Positions 9,330-17,943 of a DNA stretch of 34,533 nt are shown in pieces; the first letter of the stretch is position 1, and each line of letters starts with the position of its first letter. The stretch spans positions 1 through 34,533 of the forward strand of contig JADFXK010000005.1 of NCBI GenBank assembly GCA_015233625.1, given 5' to 3'. The DNA comes from Deltaproteobacteria bacterium (lineage in GTDB: Bacteria; Desulfobacterota; JADFXK01). The notes below the pieces were generated by a model that did no database searches, was not told the origin of the DNA, and saw nothing but the letters and a program-made list of their open reading frames with translations. Made by a program: the position numbers and the translations under genes.

Positions 9330-11252
9330 TTACAGATGCCTGCCGCGGGAATCCTGGCGGTCCAGGATGTCACGGGGCGCCCGGCTGACAAAGCGGCTCG
9401 GGCCGGAACCGAAATTACCATAAAAAGAATGGCCGGAGGTGTCCGGATAGGTGATAAACAAAAAATCCTTGGCCCGGGTGGCGGCCACATACATCAACCG
9501 CCGCTCTTCTTCCAGGGATTCGGCGTTGTCCAGGCACTTTTGGGGCGGGAAATAGCCTTCCTGGGCCCAGATAATGAAAACCGCCCCCCACTCTAATCCC
9601 TTGGCTGAATGAATGGTGGATAAGGTCAAATTGGCCCGATTCTGGCGGCGGTCCATCAGGTCGGCCTGGGAACTGGGCGGGTCGAGGGTGATATCGGCCA
9701 GGAAATGCTCCAGCGAGCGGTACCTGGTCATGATGGTTTTGAGCTGTTCGATCTCCCGGTAGCGTTTCGGAAAATCGTCATATCTTTCTTCTAAGACCGG
9801 GCCGTAAAAAGTCATCAGGCTGTCGAGCGTATCGGGTAAAGATTGGCCTGGATTCGCCGCCGTCTCCAACGCCTCGACCAGTTTGAGCAAGCCTTCTCGG
9901 GTGGCTCCTTTAGCCGGAAAATCCTTCAGCTGCCGCCAGGTCCGCCCTTCCTCAGACGCAAAGTTGATCATATCTCGGGATTTCTTCGGCCCGACCTTGT
10001 CCAACATCAGGAGCACCCGATTAAGCGACAGGGCATCTGACGAATTCTCCAGGATGCGGAGAAACGAGACAATATCTTTGATATGAGCGGATTCGACGAA
10101 CTTGAATCCTCCGTATTTAGTGAAGGGAATAGCCTGACTATCCAAGGTCACTTCCAGGTCGAAAGAATGAAATCCGGCCCGAAACAACACGGCCATCTCG
10201 GACAAGGCCAGCCCCTGGGCCTTCAATTCCTGGATGCGTCGGACGACAAACTGAGATTGATCGTTCTCTGTTCGGCACTCCACCAAGGCCGGCCGGGCCC
10301 CGGTTTTCCGGGTGGTGTACAGGCATTTGGTGTATTTAGTCTGGGCGGAGCTGATAATCTGGTTGGTCAAGTTCAAGATGGGTTGGCTGCTGCGATAGTT
10401 CTGCTCCAGTTTGATAACTTTGGCGCCCGGAAATTCTTGGGGGAAATTCATAATGTTTTTAAAAGTGGCGCCCCGGAAGGAATATATCGACTGGGAGTCA
10501 TCTCCGACGACCAGGACATTGTTATGGACCGAACTGAGTTGTTTGACGATGGCCGCCTGCAACAGATTGGTGTCCTGATATTCATCCACCATGATGTACC
10601 TGAAGCGCTGGGATAATTCAGATCTGACGGCCTCGTTTTCTTCCAGCATTTGCTTGAACATGACCAGCAAGTCATCATAGTCCAATAAACCGCTGTCCCT
10701 TTTGTACCGGGCATATTGGTCGTAGATGGTCTCCAACTGGTCCAGCACGGGGAAAAATTGGGGGAATTCTTTTTTCAAGACGTCATGGAGGTTCAAGGAC
10801 AGATTCCGGCACTTGCTGACGATCTGGACCACCGTTCGGGTCTTGGGCAGCCGGACTTTACTTTCCTTGGGCATGGACGGCTTGAACTGGGAAATGGCTG
10901 ATTCCATGTCGGCCTGGTCCAGGATGACGAAGTTGGGCGGCAGTCCGATGGCATGGCTATAGCGACGAAGACAGGCATTGGCCGTGGCGTGGAAAGTCCC
11001 GCCGGAGACATCACTCAATTCATGATCGATTAACTGGCCGGCCCGGTTGAGCATTTCCTGGGCGGAGCGGCGAGTGAAGGTCAGGAGTAAGATGTTATTG
11101 GGGGGGACGCCGTCCTCCACCATTCTGGCCACCCGATAGACCAGAGCCCGCGTCTTACCACTCCCGGCTCCGGCAATAACCAGGCAAGGACCGTCCTGGA
11201 AGAACACCGCTTCATATTGAGATTCATTAAGTTCTTTGTCGTATTGAATCAT
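9330..11252 (-). CDS. UvrD/Rep/PcrA-family ATP-dependent DNA helicase
   Basis: This superfamily 1A 3'-5' DNA helicase has 640 residues, a little shorter than E. coli UvrD or Rep. The canonical motifs are in order: Q-motif LNESQYEAV, Walker A AGAGSGKTRAL, LLLTFTRRSAQEM, DEYQDTN, GDDSQSIYSFRGA, LEQNYRSSQPIL, TIHSAKGLEWGAVFI and LMYVAATRAKDFLFI. Residues after the last motif are few, so the long UvrD C-terminal tail (RNA-polymerase/UvrB interaction region) is missing. The role is replication restart, repair or protein displacement; sequence alone does not separate Rep from PcrA/UvrD. It is first gene of the helicase-folC-lptD unit. Confidence 0.93.
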   Translation of the reverse strand: MIQYDKELNESQYEAVFFQDGPCLVIAGAGSGKTRALVYRVARMVEDGVPPNNILLLTFTRRSAQEMLNRAGQLIDHELSDVSGGTFHATANACLRRYSHAIGLPPNFVILDQADMESAISQFKPSMPKESKVRLPKTRTVVQIVSKCRNLSLNLHDVLKKEFPQFFPVLDQLETIYDQYARYKRDSGLLDYDDLLVMFKQMLEENEAVRSELSQRFRYIMVDEYQDTNLLQAAIVKQLSSVHNNVLVVGDDSQSIYSFRGATFKNIMNFPQEFPGAKVIKLEQNYRSSQPILNLTNQIISSAQTKYTKCLYTTRKTGARPALVECRTENDQSQFVVRRIQELKAQGLALSEMAVLFRAGFHSFDLEVTLDSQAIPFTKYGGFKFVESAHIKDIVSFLRILENSSDALSLNRVLLMLDKVGPKKSRDMINFASEEGRTWRQLKDFPAKGATREGLLKLVEALETAANPGQSLPDTLDSLMTFYGPVLEERYDDFPKRYREIEQLKTIMTRYRSLEHFLADITLDPPSSQADLMDRRQNRANLTLSTIHSAKGLEWGAVFIIWAQEGYFPPQKCLDNAESLEEERRLMYVAATRAKDFLFITYPDTSGHSFYGNFGSGPSRFVSRAPRDILDRQDSRGRHL

Positions 11253-11565: not shown

Positions 11566-11637
11566 TCTTGAGCATTAATCATAAAAGCCAACACGTCGGG
11601 TTCGCTTTGCCCGGAGTCGGCCGATAATTGCACTCAT

Positions 11638-11657
11638 GCGGTAGATCGCGGTAGATC
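11638..11657 (+). repeat. Tandem 10-bp repeat in the leader
   Basis: GCGGTAGATC occurs twice with no gap, about 65 bases after the predicted transcription start. It might be a regulator or RNA-binding site, or chance. Confidence 0.5.
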
Positions 11658-11724
11658 AAGAAAGAGCAAACATGCCGGACCTGAAAGGACATTCAGCCGC
11701 AGGGTATTCGTCCTTGCAACGCTT

Positions 11725-11759
11725 GGGATGTTTCTCTTTGCCTAAAGGGAAAACATCCC
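11725..11759 (+). ncRNA. Stable leader hairpin
   Basis: GGGATGTTT CTCTTT GCCT AAAGGG A AAACATCCC forms a 15-bp stem with one G-U pair, one bulged A and a 4-base loop. It sits in the predicted transcript 150 bases after the promoter. A 33-codon ORF (11672-11773, starting MPDLKGHSAAG) runs through it but has a poor ribosome-binding site. No T-tract follows, so a plain terminator is unlikely. A leader control element or small RNA is inferred. Confidence 0.4.
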
Positions 11760-11906
11760 TGTCATCGCCCTGACAAATGTCTTGGAAACATTCGCCAGAC
11801 GGTTCATACCCATCAGAAACAAATGGCGATACTCAGATGGAGCATTGATAAAACAATTAGATGAACTCGCCTCATATGGAGCCATTCAACCCGAAGAGGA
11901 GAAGCT

Positions 11907-12560
11907 ATGTTTATTGAGAATAAAGTAATTAAGGAAATATTTGAACAAATATGCCTGTTCGATCACTATACAATTTTGTGGGCTTTGGACATGGCGGAGG
12001 CATTAGGCAAAGATCCGGTTACGGGCGAAGAATCAGGTCTATCTTGTGAGGAAAAAATATCGAGGATTAATGAAATAATTTCTTCCGAGTATGCCAAGAA
12101 AAGTCATGAAGTTAAGGCTGGGGTAGCGATCAATAAGATCAGAACTATAATTGAGTCTTTGATTAAATCCGAAGGCGGCGACCCGTATAACTGGGAACCG
12201 GAAGAAGACCCCTGGCCCGGAAGATTTTATTTCCGCCAAATGAACGATTATTGCAAAATAGCTGAAGACCAGGTCCTAACCGAAGACGCTAAATCTATCA
12301 TCACCATGCTCTCTTTAACCTTCTGTATCGAAGACCGCCGGGAGCCTTCTCAAGAACAACTGGCCGTGTGGTTAAATAAGTCCGTGGCCCAGGTTCAGCA
12401 TGGACTTGAAGAACTGAGGGCCAACGGATGGATCAAAGTATCTTCTGAGGGGAAAGAGCTACTTCGTTTTTGGCCTGATGATTATCCCAGGAATAGAAAT
12501 CGCATAGGGCATTCTGAATTGGATATCCAATCGGCTGATTTAGAGTCAGGAAGAGAGTAA
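11907..12560 (+). CDS. Uncharacterised protein with probable C-terminal winged helix
   Basis: This 217-residue protein belongs to no family I recognise. The N-terminal two thirds are acidic and largely helical. Residues about 145-185 (EPSQEQLAVWLNKSVAQVQHGLEELRANGWIKVS) have the spacing of a winged helix-turn-helix: a helix, the turn LNKSVAQV, a recognition helix, then a wing strand. The same layout is seen in replication initiators and regulators that use it to bind DNA. The start is secure, with GAGGAG five to six bases before the ATG. It is followed after 3 bases by the next gene, forming an operon driven by the promoter at 11537. A DNA-binding or regulatory role is inferred. Confidence 0.6.
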   Translation: MFIENKVIKEIFEQICLFDHYTILWALDMAEALGKDPVTGEESGLSCEEKISRINEIISSEYAKKSHEVKAGVAINKIRTIIESLIKSEGGDPYNWEPEEDPWPGRFYFRQMNDYCKIAEDQVLTEDAKSIITMLSLTFCIEDRREPSQEQLAVWLNKSVAQVQHGLEELRANGWIKVSSEGKELLRFWPDDYPRNRNRIGHSELDIQSADLESGRE

Positions 12561-12563
12561 AGT

Positions 12564-13118
12564 ATGGAGAATTTTTATATCGGGCTGGAACTACTTCATT
12601 TATGGGGAATTCAAGACTTTCAACTTCTTGATTTCATGGGGCAAGGGCTTAGGGCTTATGATCAACGAGGAAGACTTGTGGTTAGCTATGAGTCACTTTC
12701 AGAGTTAGATAAAGATGACTTCGCCCCTTTCAGTTTTAACCTTTCAAGAGAAAAGTATGAGGCCGAGGCCCAGTTAAAGGCCATCCAAACCTTTATATTT
12801 CGGCTTGAAGACGTTCGCCTGTTTGCTTTAGCAAATAGACTTCCTTCGCCACAGAGCAAAAAAGAACCGCAGGCGCCAGAGCCACCACCCCAACCCGAAG
12901 TGAAGGTGGAAACCCTATCCGAGAAACGATTTAGGGACAGATTGGCGTGTAGAAAAGTCGCTAAAAGGCTCTGGTTGGACGACCCATCAATTATGATTAC
13001 CAGTATGGTAGAGCGGCAAGAAGTCATCGAAGCATCCGGAGAAAGATCCGCCTCTGTCGTATACAGTTGGATCAGGGACTTGAGCCCATCCCATAAGCCG
13101 GGACGCCGAAAAAAGTAG
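12564..13118 (+). CDS. Uncharacterised protein with basic, possibly DNA-binding C-terminus
   Basis: The protein has 184 residues. The N-terminal part (1-90) is mixed alpha/beta (MENFYIGLELLHLWGI, then VVSYESLSELDKDDFAPF). A Pro/Gln-rich linker follows (PQAPEPPPQPEVKVE, about 108-122). The C-terminal 60 residues form a compact helical unit, ACRKVAKRLWLDDPSI then VVYSWIRDL, ending in PGRRKK. That C-terminal pattern resembles a small helix-turn-helix of the kind that follows lysine/arginine-rich tails in accessory genes, but I cannot name the family. It is tightly linked to the preceding gene and most likely works with it. Confidence 0.55.
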   Translation: MENFYIGLELLHLWGIQDFQLLDFMGQGLRAYDQRGRLVVSYESLSELDKDDFAPFSFNLSREKYEAEAQLKAIQTFIFRLEDVRLFALANRLPSPQSKKEPQAPEPPPQPEVKVETLSEKRFRDRLACRKVAKRLWLDDPSIMITSMVERQEVIEASGERSASVVYSWIRDLSPSHKPGRRKK

Positions 13119-13137
13119 AAGTCTTGGCGGCCGGAGC

Positions 13138-13164
13138 GACCCGGATCAGGCGGTTTACCGGGTC
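13138..13164 (+). other. Hairpin after the two-gene operon
   Basis: GACCCGG and CCGGGTC form a perfect 7-bp GC-rich stem with a 13-base loop, 20 bases after the stop at 13118. Without a T-tract it is only a possible terminator or mRNA-end stabiliser. Confidence 0.35.
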
Positions 13165-13179
13165 CTCACAGGGAAATTC

Positions 13180-13197
13180 GAATTCTCAAGAGAATTC
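13180..13197. promoter_or_regulatory. 18-bp perfect palindrome, possible operator
   Basis: GAATTCTC-AA-GAGAATTC is a perfect inverted repeat about 185 bp before the ATPase start. The two-base centre is too short for a stable RNA hairpin, so a dimeric protein site is more likely. No regulator can be assigned; the winged-helix protein upstream is one candidate. Confidence 0.35.
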
Positions 13198-13382
13198 ACT
13201 CGGAACTTCGTCGAACAGTCACGACAGCCCCGCAGGGCGTGTTTAGCGGCCCGGCAGGCGGCGCCCGGCGACGGCCAAGAAAAAAATGAAGGGTTGAAGA
13301 AATCCCGCGTCGTGTGAAAAATTATGGTTCTAAATACTACACCGACTGAAGATTACATCATGTTCAAGACAGGAGATATCTC

Positions 13383-14447
13383 GTGCTTAATGAAATTGTT
13401 GAGATAAATAATTTCGGGCCTCTGGCCAAGGTGAGCTGGCCAAACTTGGGCCCGATCAATCTGGTAATCGGTGAAAACGACAGCGGGAAAACCTTTCTCT
13501 TGAAAGTGCTCTACAGCGTTATGCGAACACTGGAAGAATACAAGCGTGGAGAGGACCGGCGCACGGCCGCGGAAATTCTTGCAGAAAAGCTCTACTGGAC
13601 GTTCCAGCCGGATAAGATTGGGGATCTGGTCACTAAGGGAGCGGACGCGGCTTTGTCTTGTGCCGTCCAATTTGATGCGCATAGTTTCAAATATAGCTTT
13701 GGCAAGGATACGACCAGGCAGATTGCCACCTTGGAAAACCATGTGCCACCCCGTTCAAGCAATTCAATTTTTTTGCCGGCCAAGGAAATTCTGTCCTTGC
13801 TACAGATTATTCTCAAATCCCGCGAACAGGATAAAGAATTTGGCTTTGACGATACCTATCTCGACCTGGCTCGCGCCTTGCGGCAATCACCGAAGACTGG
13901 TGGAATTGGAAAGACTGGCGGTACAGGAGCAACTGGTCAAACCGGGGGTAAGGGCTATCCGGAATTTGGAAAGTCGCGTCAGAGCCTGGAGAAAATTTTA
14001 GGCGGCCGGATCGAATACGATGAAGCCACTGGACGGTGGCAATTCAAGAAGGGAAAGCAAAAGTTTCCGATCGGTGTTACGGCGGAAGGAATAAAAAAAA
14101 TAGCCATTCTCGATACGCTGCTGGGCAACCGCTACCTCGATACCAGTTCTATTATATTCTTTGACGAACCGGAATCCGCTCTTCATCCTGTGGCGATCTC
14201 TCAATTGCTGGACATTGTTGCTGTTTTGACCGACCAAGGTATTCAATTCTTCCTGGCCAGCCATTCCTATTTTGTGGTCAAGAAGTTGTTCCTAATCGCC
14301 CAAAAGAAAAATATCTCCATTCCCGTGATTTCGCCACAAGACACGAGATGGACCCCGGCAAACCTGAAGGACGGCATGCCGGAAAACGCAATCATCGATG
14401 AATCCATTCGGCTTTACAAGGAAGAAGTGGGGTGGGCACTCGCATGA
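13383..14447 (+). CDS. AAA/SMC-like ATPase of a two-gene cassette, with collagen-like tract
   Basis: This 354-residue ATPase is of the RecF/OLD-like (AAA_15/AAA_21) type. Walker A is GENDSGKTFLL (30-40), a signature-like segment is GVTAEGIKKIAIL (231-243), Walker B is IIFFDEPESALHP (257-269), and a sensor histidine is in LASHSYF (291-297). There is no TOPRIM nuclease domain after the ATPase, unlike OLD or GajA; the effector may be the next gene. Residues 173-191 are a perfect run of Gly-X-Y triplets (GGI GKT GGT GAT GQT GGK), a collagen-like insert between the two ATPase halves. The start is GTG with AGGAG seven bases upstream. The stop overlaps a start of the next gene (ATGA). Family-level call is firm; a defence role is inference. 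Confidence 0.8.
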   Translation: MLNEIVEINNFGPLAKVSWPNLGPINLVIGENDSGKTFLLKVLYSVMRTLEEYKRGEDRRTAAEILAEKLYWTFQPDKIGDLVTKGADAALSCAVQFDAHSFKYSFGKDTTRQIATLENHVPPRSSNSIFLPAKEILSLLQIILKSREQDKEFGFDDTYLDLARALRQSPKTGGIGKTGGTGATGQTGGKGYPEFGKSRQSLEKILGGRIEYDEATGRWQFKKGKQKFPIGVTAEGIKKIAILDTLLGNRYLDTSSIIFFDEPESALHPVAISQLLDIVAVLTDQGIQFFLASHSYFVVKKLFLIAQKKNISIPVISPQDTRWTPANLKDGMPENAIIDESIRLYKEEVGWALA

Positions 14448-15004
14448 CGACGCAGCCCATCGGAGAATCTAAGATGACCTTTGGCCCATACCCTGATGGG
14501 CATTGCTTTTATATTGAGAAGAGTGCGACCTATCAGAAGATTCAGCAAGGTGTGAAAATGGCGGAGTTTCTCCTTCTCCGTTTCAGCCATGGTAAACCTC
14601 CTGTCGTCTGGGTGGTTGAGGCAAAAGAAAGCGCACCGCACCCCGAAACTGAGGGCGATGAAACTAAAGCCGGTTTTGATAAGTTCATCGCAGACGTGCG
14701 TGAAAAGCTGGTCAATGCATTTTCCCTGTGCGTAGCTTCCTGTCTTAAACGACATGCGCAAGCTGAAGAGGAACTTCCAGAACCATATAAGGCACTGGAT
14801 CTTTCTGACGTGGGGGTCCGGTTTGTGCTGGTTATCAAAAATCACAAAGACGACTGGCTTGATCCCATTCGGGACGCTCTAAGAAAATCGTTTCAGGCCA
14901 CGGTCAAAACTTGGGCGCTATCGCCTACTTCCGTTGTTGTTCTCAACGAGGTGCTGGCAAGACAACATGGTTTGATCCTTTCGGCGAATGGGAGAATTAC
15001 ATGA
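14444..15004 (+). CDS. Small partner protein of the ATPase, candidate PD-(D/E)XK-type nuclease
   Basis: The protein has 186 residues. After a helical segment (YQKIQQGVKMAEFLLLR) comes a hydrophobic strand with an acidic-basic end, PPVVWVVEAKES (52-63). This is the strand plus E-x-K arrangement of the PD-(D/E)XK nuclease core. A helix (FDKFIADVREKLVNAFSL) and a further strand (VRFVLVIKNHKDDW) follow, as expected for that fold. The first catalytic acidic residue is not obvious, so nuclease activity is a hypothesis. The track start is GTG 14432. ATG 14444 overlaps the ATPase stop as ATGA. ATG 14474 has the best ribosome-binding site (GGAG, 8 bases). All three keep the domain intact. Confidence 0.6.
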   Translation: MTTQPIGESKMTFGPYPDGHCFYIEKSATYQKIQQGVKMAEFLLLRFSHGKPPVVWVVEAKESAPHPETEGDETKAGFDKFIADVREKLVNAFSLCVASCLKRHAQAEEELPEPYKALDLSDVGVRFVLVIKNHKDDWLDPIRDALRKSFQATVKTWALSPTSVVVLNEVLARQHGLILSANGRIT

Positions 15005-15063
15005 CCAGCATGGCCAAAAGCATTCTCGAAAAGACAACCCTAGAAAGAAAGGAATCCAAGCAT

Positions 15064-15663
15064 ATGAGACGCAAACACTGCGAAATAACCGACCCGCAAG
15101 AGATTGAGCGAATTCTCTGTTCCGCCACGATCGGGCGATTGGCCACCCATGGGGCGGACGGCTATCCTTATATTACCCCGGTCAATTTTGTCTTCTACCA
15201 GGGGAAGATCTATTTCCATTGTGCCCCGATGGGCGAAAAATTGGATAACTTGTACGGAGATTCCCGCGTCTGCTTCGAGGTGGACATTCCTTTGGCCTAT
15301 ATTGATGCCGGGGCTAATCCGGGGCGACAGGTCAACCGGCTGCATCAATTCTACCATTGCGTGATTATTCGGGGCGAAGCGAATGTCATCCCGGACGGGC
15401 CGCTGAAGTTAGCCGCGCTGAACGCCCTGGTGGCCAAACATGAAGGTGATTCCGGTTGGGAGCCGGTCAACGAGCACACGCTCGGCTACCAGGCCTGTAA
15501 GGTCGTCGAAATTCTGCCGGACTACACCTCAGCCAAGAGTGACCTGGCCCAAAACAAGACTCCCGAAGACCGATTGGCCTTAGCCCAATATCTGAAGACC
15601 CGGAATCGGCCCGGCGACCGGGAAACCGTCCAGGCGATGGGATTTGATCCGGACAATCTGTGA
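15064..15663 (+). CDS. Pyridoxamine 5'-phosphate oxidase-like (NimA-type) flavin-binding protein
   Basis: This is a split-barrel protein of the PPOX/Pyridox_ox_2 class, 199 residues. Characteristic segments are MRRKHCEITDPQEIERIL, IGRLATHGADGYPYITPVNF and KIYFHCAPMGEKLDNL, followed by VCFEVD and the helix LAALNALVAKHE. Relatives bind FMN, F420 or haem; the substrate cannot be predicted. The usual family N-terminus matches the ATG at 15064. An in-frame ATG at 15001 overlaps the stop of the preceding gene as ATGA and has GGGAG six bases upstream, so a 21-residue longer, translationally coupled form is possible. It would then be part of the ATPase operon, otherwise it is simply downstream. Confidence 0.8.
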   Translation: MRRKHCEITDPQEIERILCSATIGRLATHGADGYPYITPVNFVFYQGKIYFHCAPMGEKLDNLYGDSRVCFEVDIPLAYIDAGANPGRQVNRLHQFYHCVIIRGEANVIPDGPLKLAALNALVAKHEGDSGWEPVNEHTLGYQACKVVEILPDYTSAKSDLAQNKTPEDRLALAQYLKTRNRPGDRETVQAMGFDPDNL

Positions 15664-15723
15664 CGGGGTGGTTGCTCGATGCTGGTTAATGTCATCGTCT
15701 TCAGGACAGGGCAAGCGCCCTCA

Positions 15724-15882
15724 TTGTCTGAACCTTGATTACGCTGATTTACGGATTTACTATGATGTTTGCGGCTTCAAGGCCAAACATGAAATCCCAC
15801 GGCTTACCCGGCACTCCAACATGCGGATATTCTGCCTTAATCATAGTTCTTCATTTAATCAGCGTAATCAAGGTTCAGACAA
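15724..15882. repeat. Inverted-repeat element with 26-bp perfect arms
   Basis: TTGTCTGAACCTTGATTACGCTGATT at 15724-15749 is repeated as its exact complement at 15857-15882. A second matched pair (CTATGAT / ATCATAG) lies 10 bases further in on both sides, so the whole 159 bp can fold as one long hairpin with symmetric internal loops. The arm sequence looks like a dispersed intergenic repeat I associate with many anaerobe and cyanobacterial genomes. No ORF is inside. It fills most of the 339-bp gap between the PPOX gene and the pentapeptide gene. Confidence 0.7.
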
Positions 15883-16002
15883 CGAGGCGGATTCCAGTCC
15901 AAGCCGCACCTTAATTCAACGTCATCGGGGCGTTGCCCTGAGCCGTTAACATATTTGCATCGCACCAAAATATACCACGAACCCGTCACCAAGAGAGAAG
16001 CC

Positions 16003-17943
16003 ATGGCCTGCTGTAAATGCAATAGGACGGATATAGTCTTCACTGATCCTGATAAAAGGGAAGCCTACTGCCTGTTCCATGCTCCGGTGGACAAAAAAGG
16101 GATGACTGCGGCGGAATTCCAGGAGCAGGTTCTTCGTGAGATAGACCGGTCAAAAGCAGCGGATGAGAAATACTGTGATGTATCGGGCGCCATCTTCCCC
16201 GAGGTAGACTTCCGTGACACCACATTTTCCCATATCATAGACTTCGACGGCGCTACATTTACCCAAAAAGCCGACTTTAGCCGAGCCACATTTAACCAGC
16301 ATGTCTACTTCCGCGGCACCAAATTTACCCAGGACGCAGTTTTCAGCCACGCCACATTCATCTGGGCCAACTTCGGCGGCGCCATATTTACCCAGTGGGC
16401 CGACTTCAGTGGCGCCACATTTACCGAGAAGGTCAGCTTCAAGCTCGCCACATTTACTCAATGGGGCTTCTTCAGCCACGCCACATTTACCGAGGACGCC
16501 GACTTCCGCTACGCCAAATTTACTCTGGATGCCGATTTCTCCGGCGCCTCATTTATCAAGGTCGGCTTCAGCGGCACCAAATTTACCCAGGACGCAGTTT
16601 TCAGCCACGCCACATTTACCGAAGCCGCCGACTTCAGTCTCACCTCATTCAGCGGGGATGCAGAGTTTATCGAAGCCGAATTCGCCCTGGCCTTCTTCAA
16701 CGGAGCCAAATTTGACCGGGCCTTCTTCATTGGGGCCATCTTTAACCGGGATACCTACTTCAGCGAGGCCGAATATACCGTGGAAGCATCCTTCCGCGAA
16801 GCCGTCTTTACCGAAGACGTCTATTTCAGTGAGGCCAAATTTAGCCGGGCCTTCTTCGATGATGCCGTTTTTATCCAAGACGCATATTTCCGTGAAGTAA
16901 AATTTACCCAGGATATTTATTTCATTCGCACTAAGTTTGAACAACATGCTGATTTCAAGAATTCTTTTTTTGAAGGAACTACAGTATTCGAGGACACCAA
17001 GTTCCATCAGGCTGAGTTTAAGCGTTTATTCATAAAGGAAAAAGTATTCTTTATCGATATCGACCTGACGAAAGAAATTAGTTTTCTCCAAACCGACTTG
17101 CGCCGATTTCAGTTCGAGCGCTGTCTGTGGCCCAGAGCGCGCCGGTGCAAATGCTGCCGGTGGCTCGGAATGCGCATGTTTCAGTTCAAGTGTTTCCAAT
17201 GGCTAAAAAAAAGAGATTGGCTCCGAGGCCGGGAAGTCCTCTGGGATGAGCTATCGATCGACTTGCTCGACGCGAAATCGACCGAAAATGATAAGGCCGA
17301 AGTGGCCCCGGACTTTGTCACGGTGGGCAATCTCTACCGGCAGTTAAAGCAGAAATATAAAGAGGAGCACAATGAGTCGGAGGCGTCCAAATGGCATTAT
17401 AACGAAAAGGAGATGTTTCGGAAAAGCAGCAAGTGCCGAGGACTCTTTCTGGTCCCTCTAACCTATCTCTACTATTGGTTCAGTGGCTACGCCGAGAGGC
17501 CAGTCCGGGCCGGGATCATGCTGATTTTGCTATTCATGTTCTATGTGGGAGTAATGGCCGGCTGTGACTTGGAATTCACCTCTTTGCCCTCGGTTCAAGC
17601 TCCGGTCAAGGCCGCAGTACTAGCACCGGCACCGCCTCAGGCTCAGACAAAGGCCGCAGAGTGGGCATGGTTTCAAGTTCCGTGTCAAGACTCGGGCAAC
17701 AAGCAAACTGTCTGCCTGAACTTGATAGCTATTACCCGCTCACCGGAACGCATCTGTAAAGACCGGACGGCGTGGAAGCATTTAGTGGTCGGTTCATTTG
17801 AACAAATCTTTGCGGTCAAAGATCCCTATTTCAAGCCGGCAACCTGGCCGGGTCGAGCGTGGAACCTCGCGCTGACCAGGCTGCTCATCCCGCTTCAGGT
17901 CATCTTTTTTGGTTTGGCCGTGCGGAACCGATTCAGACGATGA
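16003..17943 (+). CDS. Pentapeptide-repeat membrane protein with N-terminal zinc-ribbon-like motif
   Basis: The protein has 646 residues. It opens with C-x2-C ... C-x2-H (C3, C6, C23, H26), a probable zinc site. Residues about 55-360 are more than 50 tandem pentapeptide units with a central Phe (ADFSGATFTEK, VYFRGTKFTQD), which build a right-handed quadrilateral beta-helix. After that come a helical segment with LYRQLKQKYKEEHNESEASKWHYNEKEM, a transmembrane helix (AGIMLILLFMFYVGVMAG), a loop with Pro/Ala-rich sequence, and a last hydrophobic segment before RNRFRR. This C-terminal module recurs in pentapeptide proteins and looks channel-like, but no K+ filter is visible. The track's TTG start at 15955 is less likely than ATG 16003, which has AGAGAGAAG just upstream. 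Confidence 0.8.
   Translation: MACCKCNRTDIVFTDPDKREAYCLFHAPVDKKGMTAAEFQEQVLREIDRSKAADEKYCDVSGAIFPEVDFRDTTFSHIIDFDGATFTQKADFSRATFNQHVYFRGTKFTQDAVFSHATFIWANFGGAIFTQWADFSGATFTEKVSFKLATFTQWGFFSHATFTEDADFRYAKFTLDADFSGASFIKVGFSGTKFTQDAVFSHATFTEAADFSLTSFSGDAEFIEAEFALAFFNGAKFDRAFFIGAIFNRDTYFSEAEYTVEASFREAVFTEDVYFSEAKFSRAFFDDAVFIQDAYFREVKFTQDIYFIRTKFEQHADFKNSFFEGTTVFEDTKFHQAEFKRLFIKEKVFFIDIDLTKEISFLQTDLRRFQFERCLWPRARRCKCCRWLGMRMFQFKCFQWLKKRDWLRGREVLWDELSIDLLDAKSTENDKAEVAPDFVTVGNLYRQLKQKYKEEHNESEASKWHYNEKEMFRKSSKCRGLFLVPLTYLYYWFSGYAERPVRAGIMLILLFMFYVGVMAGCDLEFTSLPSVQAPVKAAVLAPAPPQAQTKAAEWAWFQVPCQDSGNKQTVCLNLIAITRSPERICKDRTAWKHLVVGSFEQIFAVKDPYFKPATWPGRAWNLALTRLLIPLQVIFFGLAVRNRFRR

Follow-up and report, generated by a model that had tools for sequence, protein, structure and literature searches.

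A HEC-02 gene pair of an ABC/Rad50-type ATPase and a predicted PD-(D/E)XK-type partner in a deltaproteobacterial genome

The window analysed here is a stretch of 34,533 nucleotides from a deltaproteobacterium of the phylum Desulfobacterota (contig JADFXK010000005.1, assembly GCA_015233625.1), and it holds two overlapping genes, A and B, within a segment that is variable in the genus. The genes, their motifs and the surrounding features are the following:

9330-11252, minus strand: left flank, helicase gene that we name UvrD/PcrA-type from features of its sequence; outside the system, 96-97% identity in two sister genomes
11626-15042, no strand: variable segment, absent from two genomes of the same genus, whose flanking DNA matches that of the window at 84-91% identity, ending at 11625/11633 on the left and resuming at 15043 on the right
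11907-12560, plus strand: open reading frame of 217 aa with a weak HTH match (HTH_36, E = 0.001, below the cut-off); no membership of the system is claimed
12564-13118, plus strand: open reading frame of 184 aa with no significant family; no membership of the system is claimed
13383-14447, plus strand: gene A (HEC-02A), 354 aa, GTG start, TGA stop, predicted Rad50/PtuA-type ABC ATPase
13470-13493, plus strand: Walker A of A, GENDSGKT (residues 30-37); G30, N32, G35 and K36 invariant in 49 sequences
13896-13943, plus strand: Gly-rich insert of A, about 16 residues (around 172-187), disordered, only in the genome of the window
14151-14168, plus strand: Walker B of A, IIFFDE (residues 257-262); D261 invariant, E262 in at least 90%
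14444-15004, plus strand: gene B (HEC-02B), 186 aa, ATG start, TGA stop, small protein of putative PD-(D/E)XK type
14564-14566, plus strand: E41 of B, which probably serves as the acid of motif II; diverged relatives have D
14618-14626, plus strand: E59-A60-K61 of B, putative motif III (E-x-K), at the end of strand 54-61
15064-15663, plus strand: right flank, pyridoxamine-oxidase-like (NimA-like, PNPOx) gene (PF12900, 1.4e-18), outside the system, 60 nt past B

Both open reading frames lie exactly where a sequence-only reading of this DNA had placed them, and the ATGA junction that it described between an ATPase gene and a small-protein gene is a 4-nt overlap in which the start of B falls inside the stop of A. 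The start of A is preceded by AGGAG and coincides in alignments with the point at which its relatives begin (MLNE/MINx). An alternative GTG start of B at 14432 is unsupported, because relatives begin at the same MTT.

By sequence and by model, A is an ABC/Rad50-type ATPase. It matches the Pfam families AAA_21 (1e-18) and AAA_15 (7.5e-15), its H-loop histidine is conserved along with the Walker motifs, and Pfam detects no nuclease domain in it, in agreement with the earlier description of an SMC/RecF-like ATPase devoid of a nuclease of its own. The AF2 model (pLDDT 88) retrieves Rad50, SMC heads, retron PtuA and Septu PtuAB in Foldseek searches, with E values of about 1e-10 to 1e-8, and the sequence search agrees with the structure search on the nearest solved structures. 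Among PADLOC models, those of AriA (1e-20), AbiLi and NsnB are matched in the range 1e-20 to 1e-15. The insert encoded at 13896-13943 is Gly/Thr-rich and repeat-like (TGGIGKTGGTGATGQT), is absent from 48 relatives, and coincides with a region of pLDDT <50 (residues 173-189); it may have arisen by local expansion of a repeat within a disordered loop.

The partner B matches no family in Pfam or NCBIfam. Its AF2 model (mean pLDDT 92.4) consists of a helix (28-33), two strands (42-46 and 54-61), a long helix (72-100), a strand (124-131), a helix (136-149) and a last strand (164-168). The hairpin 42-46/54-61 brings E41, which opens its first strand, and E59-x-K61 to the same end, and is followed by the long helix, which contains K88, and then by strand 124-131; E25 stands before the first helix. 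E59-A-K61 closes the second hairpin strand of the model, and the strand ending in EAK noted in the sequence-only reading is therefore borne out. Residues E41, E59 and K88 are present in all 53 intact sequences and K61 in 52 of them, the single exception being a relative with E-A-R at motif III, and near invariance of E41, E59 and K61 holds over relatives of about 31-71% identity. The acid of motif II and the E-x-K of motif III are found on neighbouring strands, with E replacing D.

Diverged relatives of the ATPase (26-39% identity) also have small-protein partners, most of which carry the canonical D-x(n)-E-x-K (e.g., KAVDIIAI...VIWLIEAKDY), and one of which (in L118) has E-x-T instead of E-x-K. 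The diverged partners that were tested match the HEC-02 partner models (HEC-02B). They align with B motif on motif (hhalign probability 91.5, E = 8.8e-7, A4 versus A7), so that E41 takes the position of their D, and given the canonical D...E-x-K of these partners, B is probably a PD-(D/E)XK nuclease in which the first acid is a glutamate.

The order of elements in B is compatible with a restriction-endonuclease-like core on condition that one strand of that core is shortened or out of place. In Foldseek searches, neither the PDB nor viral structures (BFVD) gave a match at E <0.001; some of the weaker matches are nuclease-like, and the top PDB match is the restriction enzyme BsmI (probability 0.44). 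Searches of the PDB by sequence with B profiles gave no match. The outcome that was to refute the sequence-only reading, a partner structure with no nuclease or other effector fold, did not appear: the site of B is nuclease-like and set in a confidently modelled fold, although that fold matched no solved nuclease significantly. A useful comparison within the superfamily is the Holliday junction resolvase Hjc, in which motifs I, II and III follow one another as E9, D33, E46 and K48 (PMC1913061). The succession of acid, acid and E-x-K and the helix that follows are common to both proteins (PMC1913061), whereas B lacks detectable sequence homology in the PDB and has E where motif II has D. Taking alignments and model together, we consider it likely that B is an active nuclease of this kind.

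The pair is almost certainly a member of HEC-02, a two-gene candidate antiviral system that has already been catalogued. In PADLOC-DB 2.0.0, A matches the HEC-02A model PDLC04214 at E = 1e-156 (residues 1-352 to 1-336 of 338) and B matches the HEC-02B model PDLC04221 at E = 3.9e-65 (residues 1-178 to 1-169 of 171), and all 46 aligned relatives of B match HEC-02B. The system had been put forward as undescribed, a claim that falls because this database names both genes; what is added here is the assignment of catalytic residues, the test of co-occurrence in both directions and the evidence on hotspots. The name HEC denotes a Hma-embedded candidate and goes back to a 2024 preprint by Payne et al. 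on 'guilt-by-embedding', as cited in PMC12988326 and PMC12255303. According to PMC12988326 several HECs were active, HEC-06 being the only one named. The Hma context of HEC-02 is a context of discovery and no requirement of membership. The pair of the window shares with HEC-02 the two genes, their order and full-length model matches, and differs from it in lying outside any Hma cluster (inspection of open reading frames identified no Hma locus in the window), in the unique Gly-rich loop of A and in a 5-residue insert in B. Note that some PADLOC labels seem to have been exchanged: the ATPase is matched by PDLC04146 ('HEC-02B') and the small partner by PDLC04145 ('HEC-02A'), and PDLC04144 ('HEC-01B') matches a HEC-01 ATPase.

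Several other systems resemble the pair in part. HEC-01, composed of an ABC ATPase and DUF4276, has the same layout of an ATPase with a small partner, but its ATPase belongs to another subfamily and its partner is DUF4276 instead of a PD-(D/E)XK-type protein. Septu and retron PtuAB share the fold of A, and searches by sequence and by structure both put them with the solved structures closest to it. Their second protein, PtuB, is an HNH nuclease. Membership of Septu was rejected, since neither Pfam nor PADLOC gives an HNH match for B. PARIS is likewise a two-gene system of an ABC ATPase and an effector, and A scores 1e-20 against its AriA model; its effector AriB is a Toprim nuclease (PMC11455837), and membership was rejected because B has no Toprim or AriB match in Pfam or PADLOC. 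In Gabija and OLD the ATPase is fused to a Toprim nuclease, whereas A, at 354 aa, ends after the ATPase; A is similar to the ATPases of both, yet they too were rejected. AbiL was rejected as well; A resembles its ATPase, but B matches no AbiL partner.

An alignment of B scanned against about 85,000 species genomes recovered 52 related loci over several phyla, and A lies directly upstream of B in 51 of 51 checkable loci (L056 begins at a contig edge), with an exact 4-nt overlap in 48 of 53 pairs. In the reverse test, A was searched in 399 genomes of Pseudomonadota (the phylum of L054) and 292 of Cyanobacteria (the phylum of L024). Fourteen matches of at least 50% identity were found, two of which end at a contig edge; the 12 with enough downstream sequence all have B, and 9 of these lie outside the first set of loci. 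That homologues of the two genes should occur together, which the sequence-only reading had set as a check, is thus essentially always the case. Where dN/dS could be computed it was 0.03-0.21 for A and 0.09-0.23 for B, deeper pairs being near synonymous saturation, and both genes are therefore under purifying selection. Kept together in more than 50 genomes, with dN/dS values of 0.03-0.23 wherever these were computable, the pair is not a product of chance.

Its distribution is patchy. Of 247 genomes from the phylum to which the window belongs, 2 have B, and it was not found in the two other genomes of the genus, all three genomes of which are incomplete. Scans of IMG/VR contigs and phage records found no relatives of B. 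Two copies appear to be broken, A being frameshifted in L014 (8992-10004) and B in L057 (10001-10530), unless these are assembly errors; they suggest that the module is dispensable in some hosts.

The two sister genomes reveal what else can occupy the site. Both of them (G042 and G005) have a uvrD-type and a PNPOx gene that share 90-97% identity with the flanking genes of the window (92% for the PNPOx gene in a sister without A and B), in collinear DNA, and between these two genes lies a HEC-01-type ATPase gene in place of HEC-02 (window 11626-15042 versus L137 and L138). The G005 copy matches PDLC04182 (8.4e-128) and PDLC04144 (2.5e-174), and the G042 copy has an in-frame stop. This gene may be a remnant, since no DUF4276 partner was seen beside it at the sister site. 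The open reading frames at 11907-13118, upstream of A and co-directional with it, are missing from this site in the sister genomes. The local context is accessory, as the earlier reading held; the possible operator that it mentioned gained no support, promoter-like and terminator-like counts being those of the shuffled expectation.

Neighbours of the relatives were tallied by Pfam and NCBIfam, the PADLOC neighbour scan being swamped by redundant HsdS models, and they vary between genomes. Type I restriction loci (HsdS-HsdR) enclose the pair in L013, L016 and L060; in L039 it lies between PglX and PglZ of BREX, in L026 it has PglZ downstream and in L040 it adjoins HEC-01A. This association with defence is real and was seen in a minority of loci. 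Many relatives stand in or beside housekeeping genes and not in defence islands, including cysD-cysN, hisS, prfA, purC and pgk (hisS, prfA and purC named by eye). The pair is found at cysD-cysN in seven methanotroph loci (L055 and L052 with partial flanks, L056 with cysN only), and these copies form one clade on the tree of A.

The gap between cysD and cysN was also compared in 29 further cysN loci, where its length runs from 41 nt to >1 kb. In methanotrophs of the order of G247 (L051-L056, L064, L078-L106) it is a variable insertion site, measuring 41-62 nt in many genomes. In the others it holds HEC-02, 23S rRNA intervening-sequence-type (23S-IVP-type) proteins (L081, L083-L085, L093, L101, L103), a HEC-01 pair (L080), a Mrr_cat-like protein with a partner (L082) or small secreted-like proteins (L089, L095, L098). 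Since other species have unrelated inserts in this gap, a link between the pair and the metabolism of sulfate was rejected.

The ATPase fold of A, the conserved nuclease-like site of B, the obligate pairing, the selection on both genes, the patchy distribution and the sharing of sites with HEC-01 are the grounds on which we regard the pair as a probable defence module. We accordingly retain the reading of an ATPase-plus-effector pair with a PD-(D/E)XK-type partner, and of defence as its likely role. The mechanism that we predict, and hold to be moderately probable, is an antiviral defence in which the ATPase gates a nuclease. A would oligomerise through ATP and bind B, and translation across the overlap would fix the ratio of the two proteins. 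An infection signal, either a phage DNA structure or a phage protein, would alter the state of A, upon which B would be allowed to cleave nucleic acid, more probably DNA than RNA, and the cleavage would block the phage or shut down the host cell. Gating of this sort is suggested by analogy, the best fold matches of A being Rad50 and PtuA/retron PtuAB and the nearest cases worked out in detail being PARIS and Septu/PtuAB. AriA, the ABC ATPase of PARIS, retains AriB as long as no trigger such as Ocr is bound; once one is, AriB cuts tRNA (PMC11455837).

That precedent (PMC11455837), together with the scores of A against the AriA, AbiLi and NsnB models and the obligate, operonic pairing, would accommodate a scheme in which A sequesters B as an antitoxin and B, freed when a phage protein is sensed, cuts host RNA such as tRNA, the outcome being abortive infection and not an attack on the DNA of the phage. 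We think this unlikely, given that B has no Toprim match. Proteins of the PD-(D/E)XK superfamily, furthermore, mostly cut DNA. It is also conceivable that B is catalytically dead or is no nuclease at all, for instance a DNA-binding adaptor of the ATPase, as the glutamate in motif II, the natural E-A-R variant and the lack of a significant fold match would allow. However, the near invariance of E41, E59 and K61 among quite distant relatives and the canonical D...E-x-K of the diverged partners make such a reading improbable.

A role outside defence, such as the repair of DNA or a task connected with sulfate activation, could be read from the resemblance of A to Rad50 and from the methanotroph copies at cysD-cysN, which belong to a single clade. 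Most sampled cysD-cysN gaps, however, have other inserts or none. The rarity of B in the phylum, the contexts that differ between genomes and the two genomes of the same genus that lack B and have a different gene at the site argue against housekeeping too, and we regard such a role as very doubtful. ATPase-gated nuclease defence remains the preferred reading.

These results turn the database label HEC-02 into a mechanism that can be tested, in which the catalytic residues are named, the partner is obligate and the homologues available for cloning are diverse. The sites shared by HEC-01 and HEC-02 and the insertions into housekeeping operons further suggest where defence genes may be sought beyond defence islands. 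We tentatively propose, as a possibility for which the balance is slightly unfavourable, that HEC-02 and HEC-01 can stand in for one another as cargo and have repeatedly entered small chromosomal hotspots, including housekeeping operons (uvrD/PNPOx in the window, cysD/cysN in methanotrophs), with no obvious integrase beside them, forming a reservoir of defence outside classical islands, and that HEC-02B is a branch of the PD-(D/E)XK proteins with a motif II glutamate.

Two observations concern the DNA to the right of the pair. Between the PNPOx gene and a gene for a pentapeptide-repeat protein, at 15719-15887, lies a 48-nt inverted repeat (85% complementary) that looks like a dispersed repeat element. 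The pentapeptide-repeat protein (15955-17943, 662 aa, with C-terminal hydrophobic segments) is encoded downstream of PNPOx, and a start related to its own is present in the sister locus L137.
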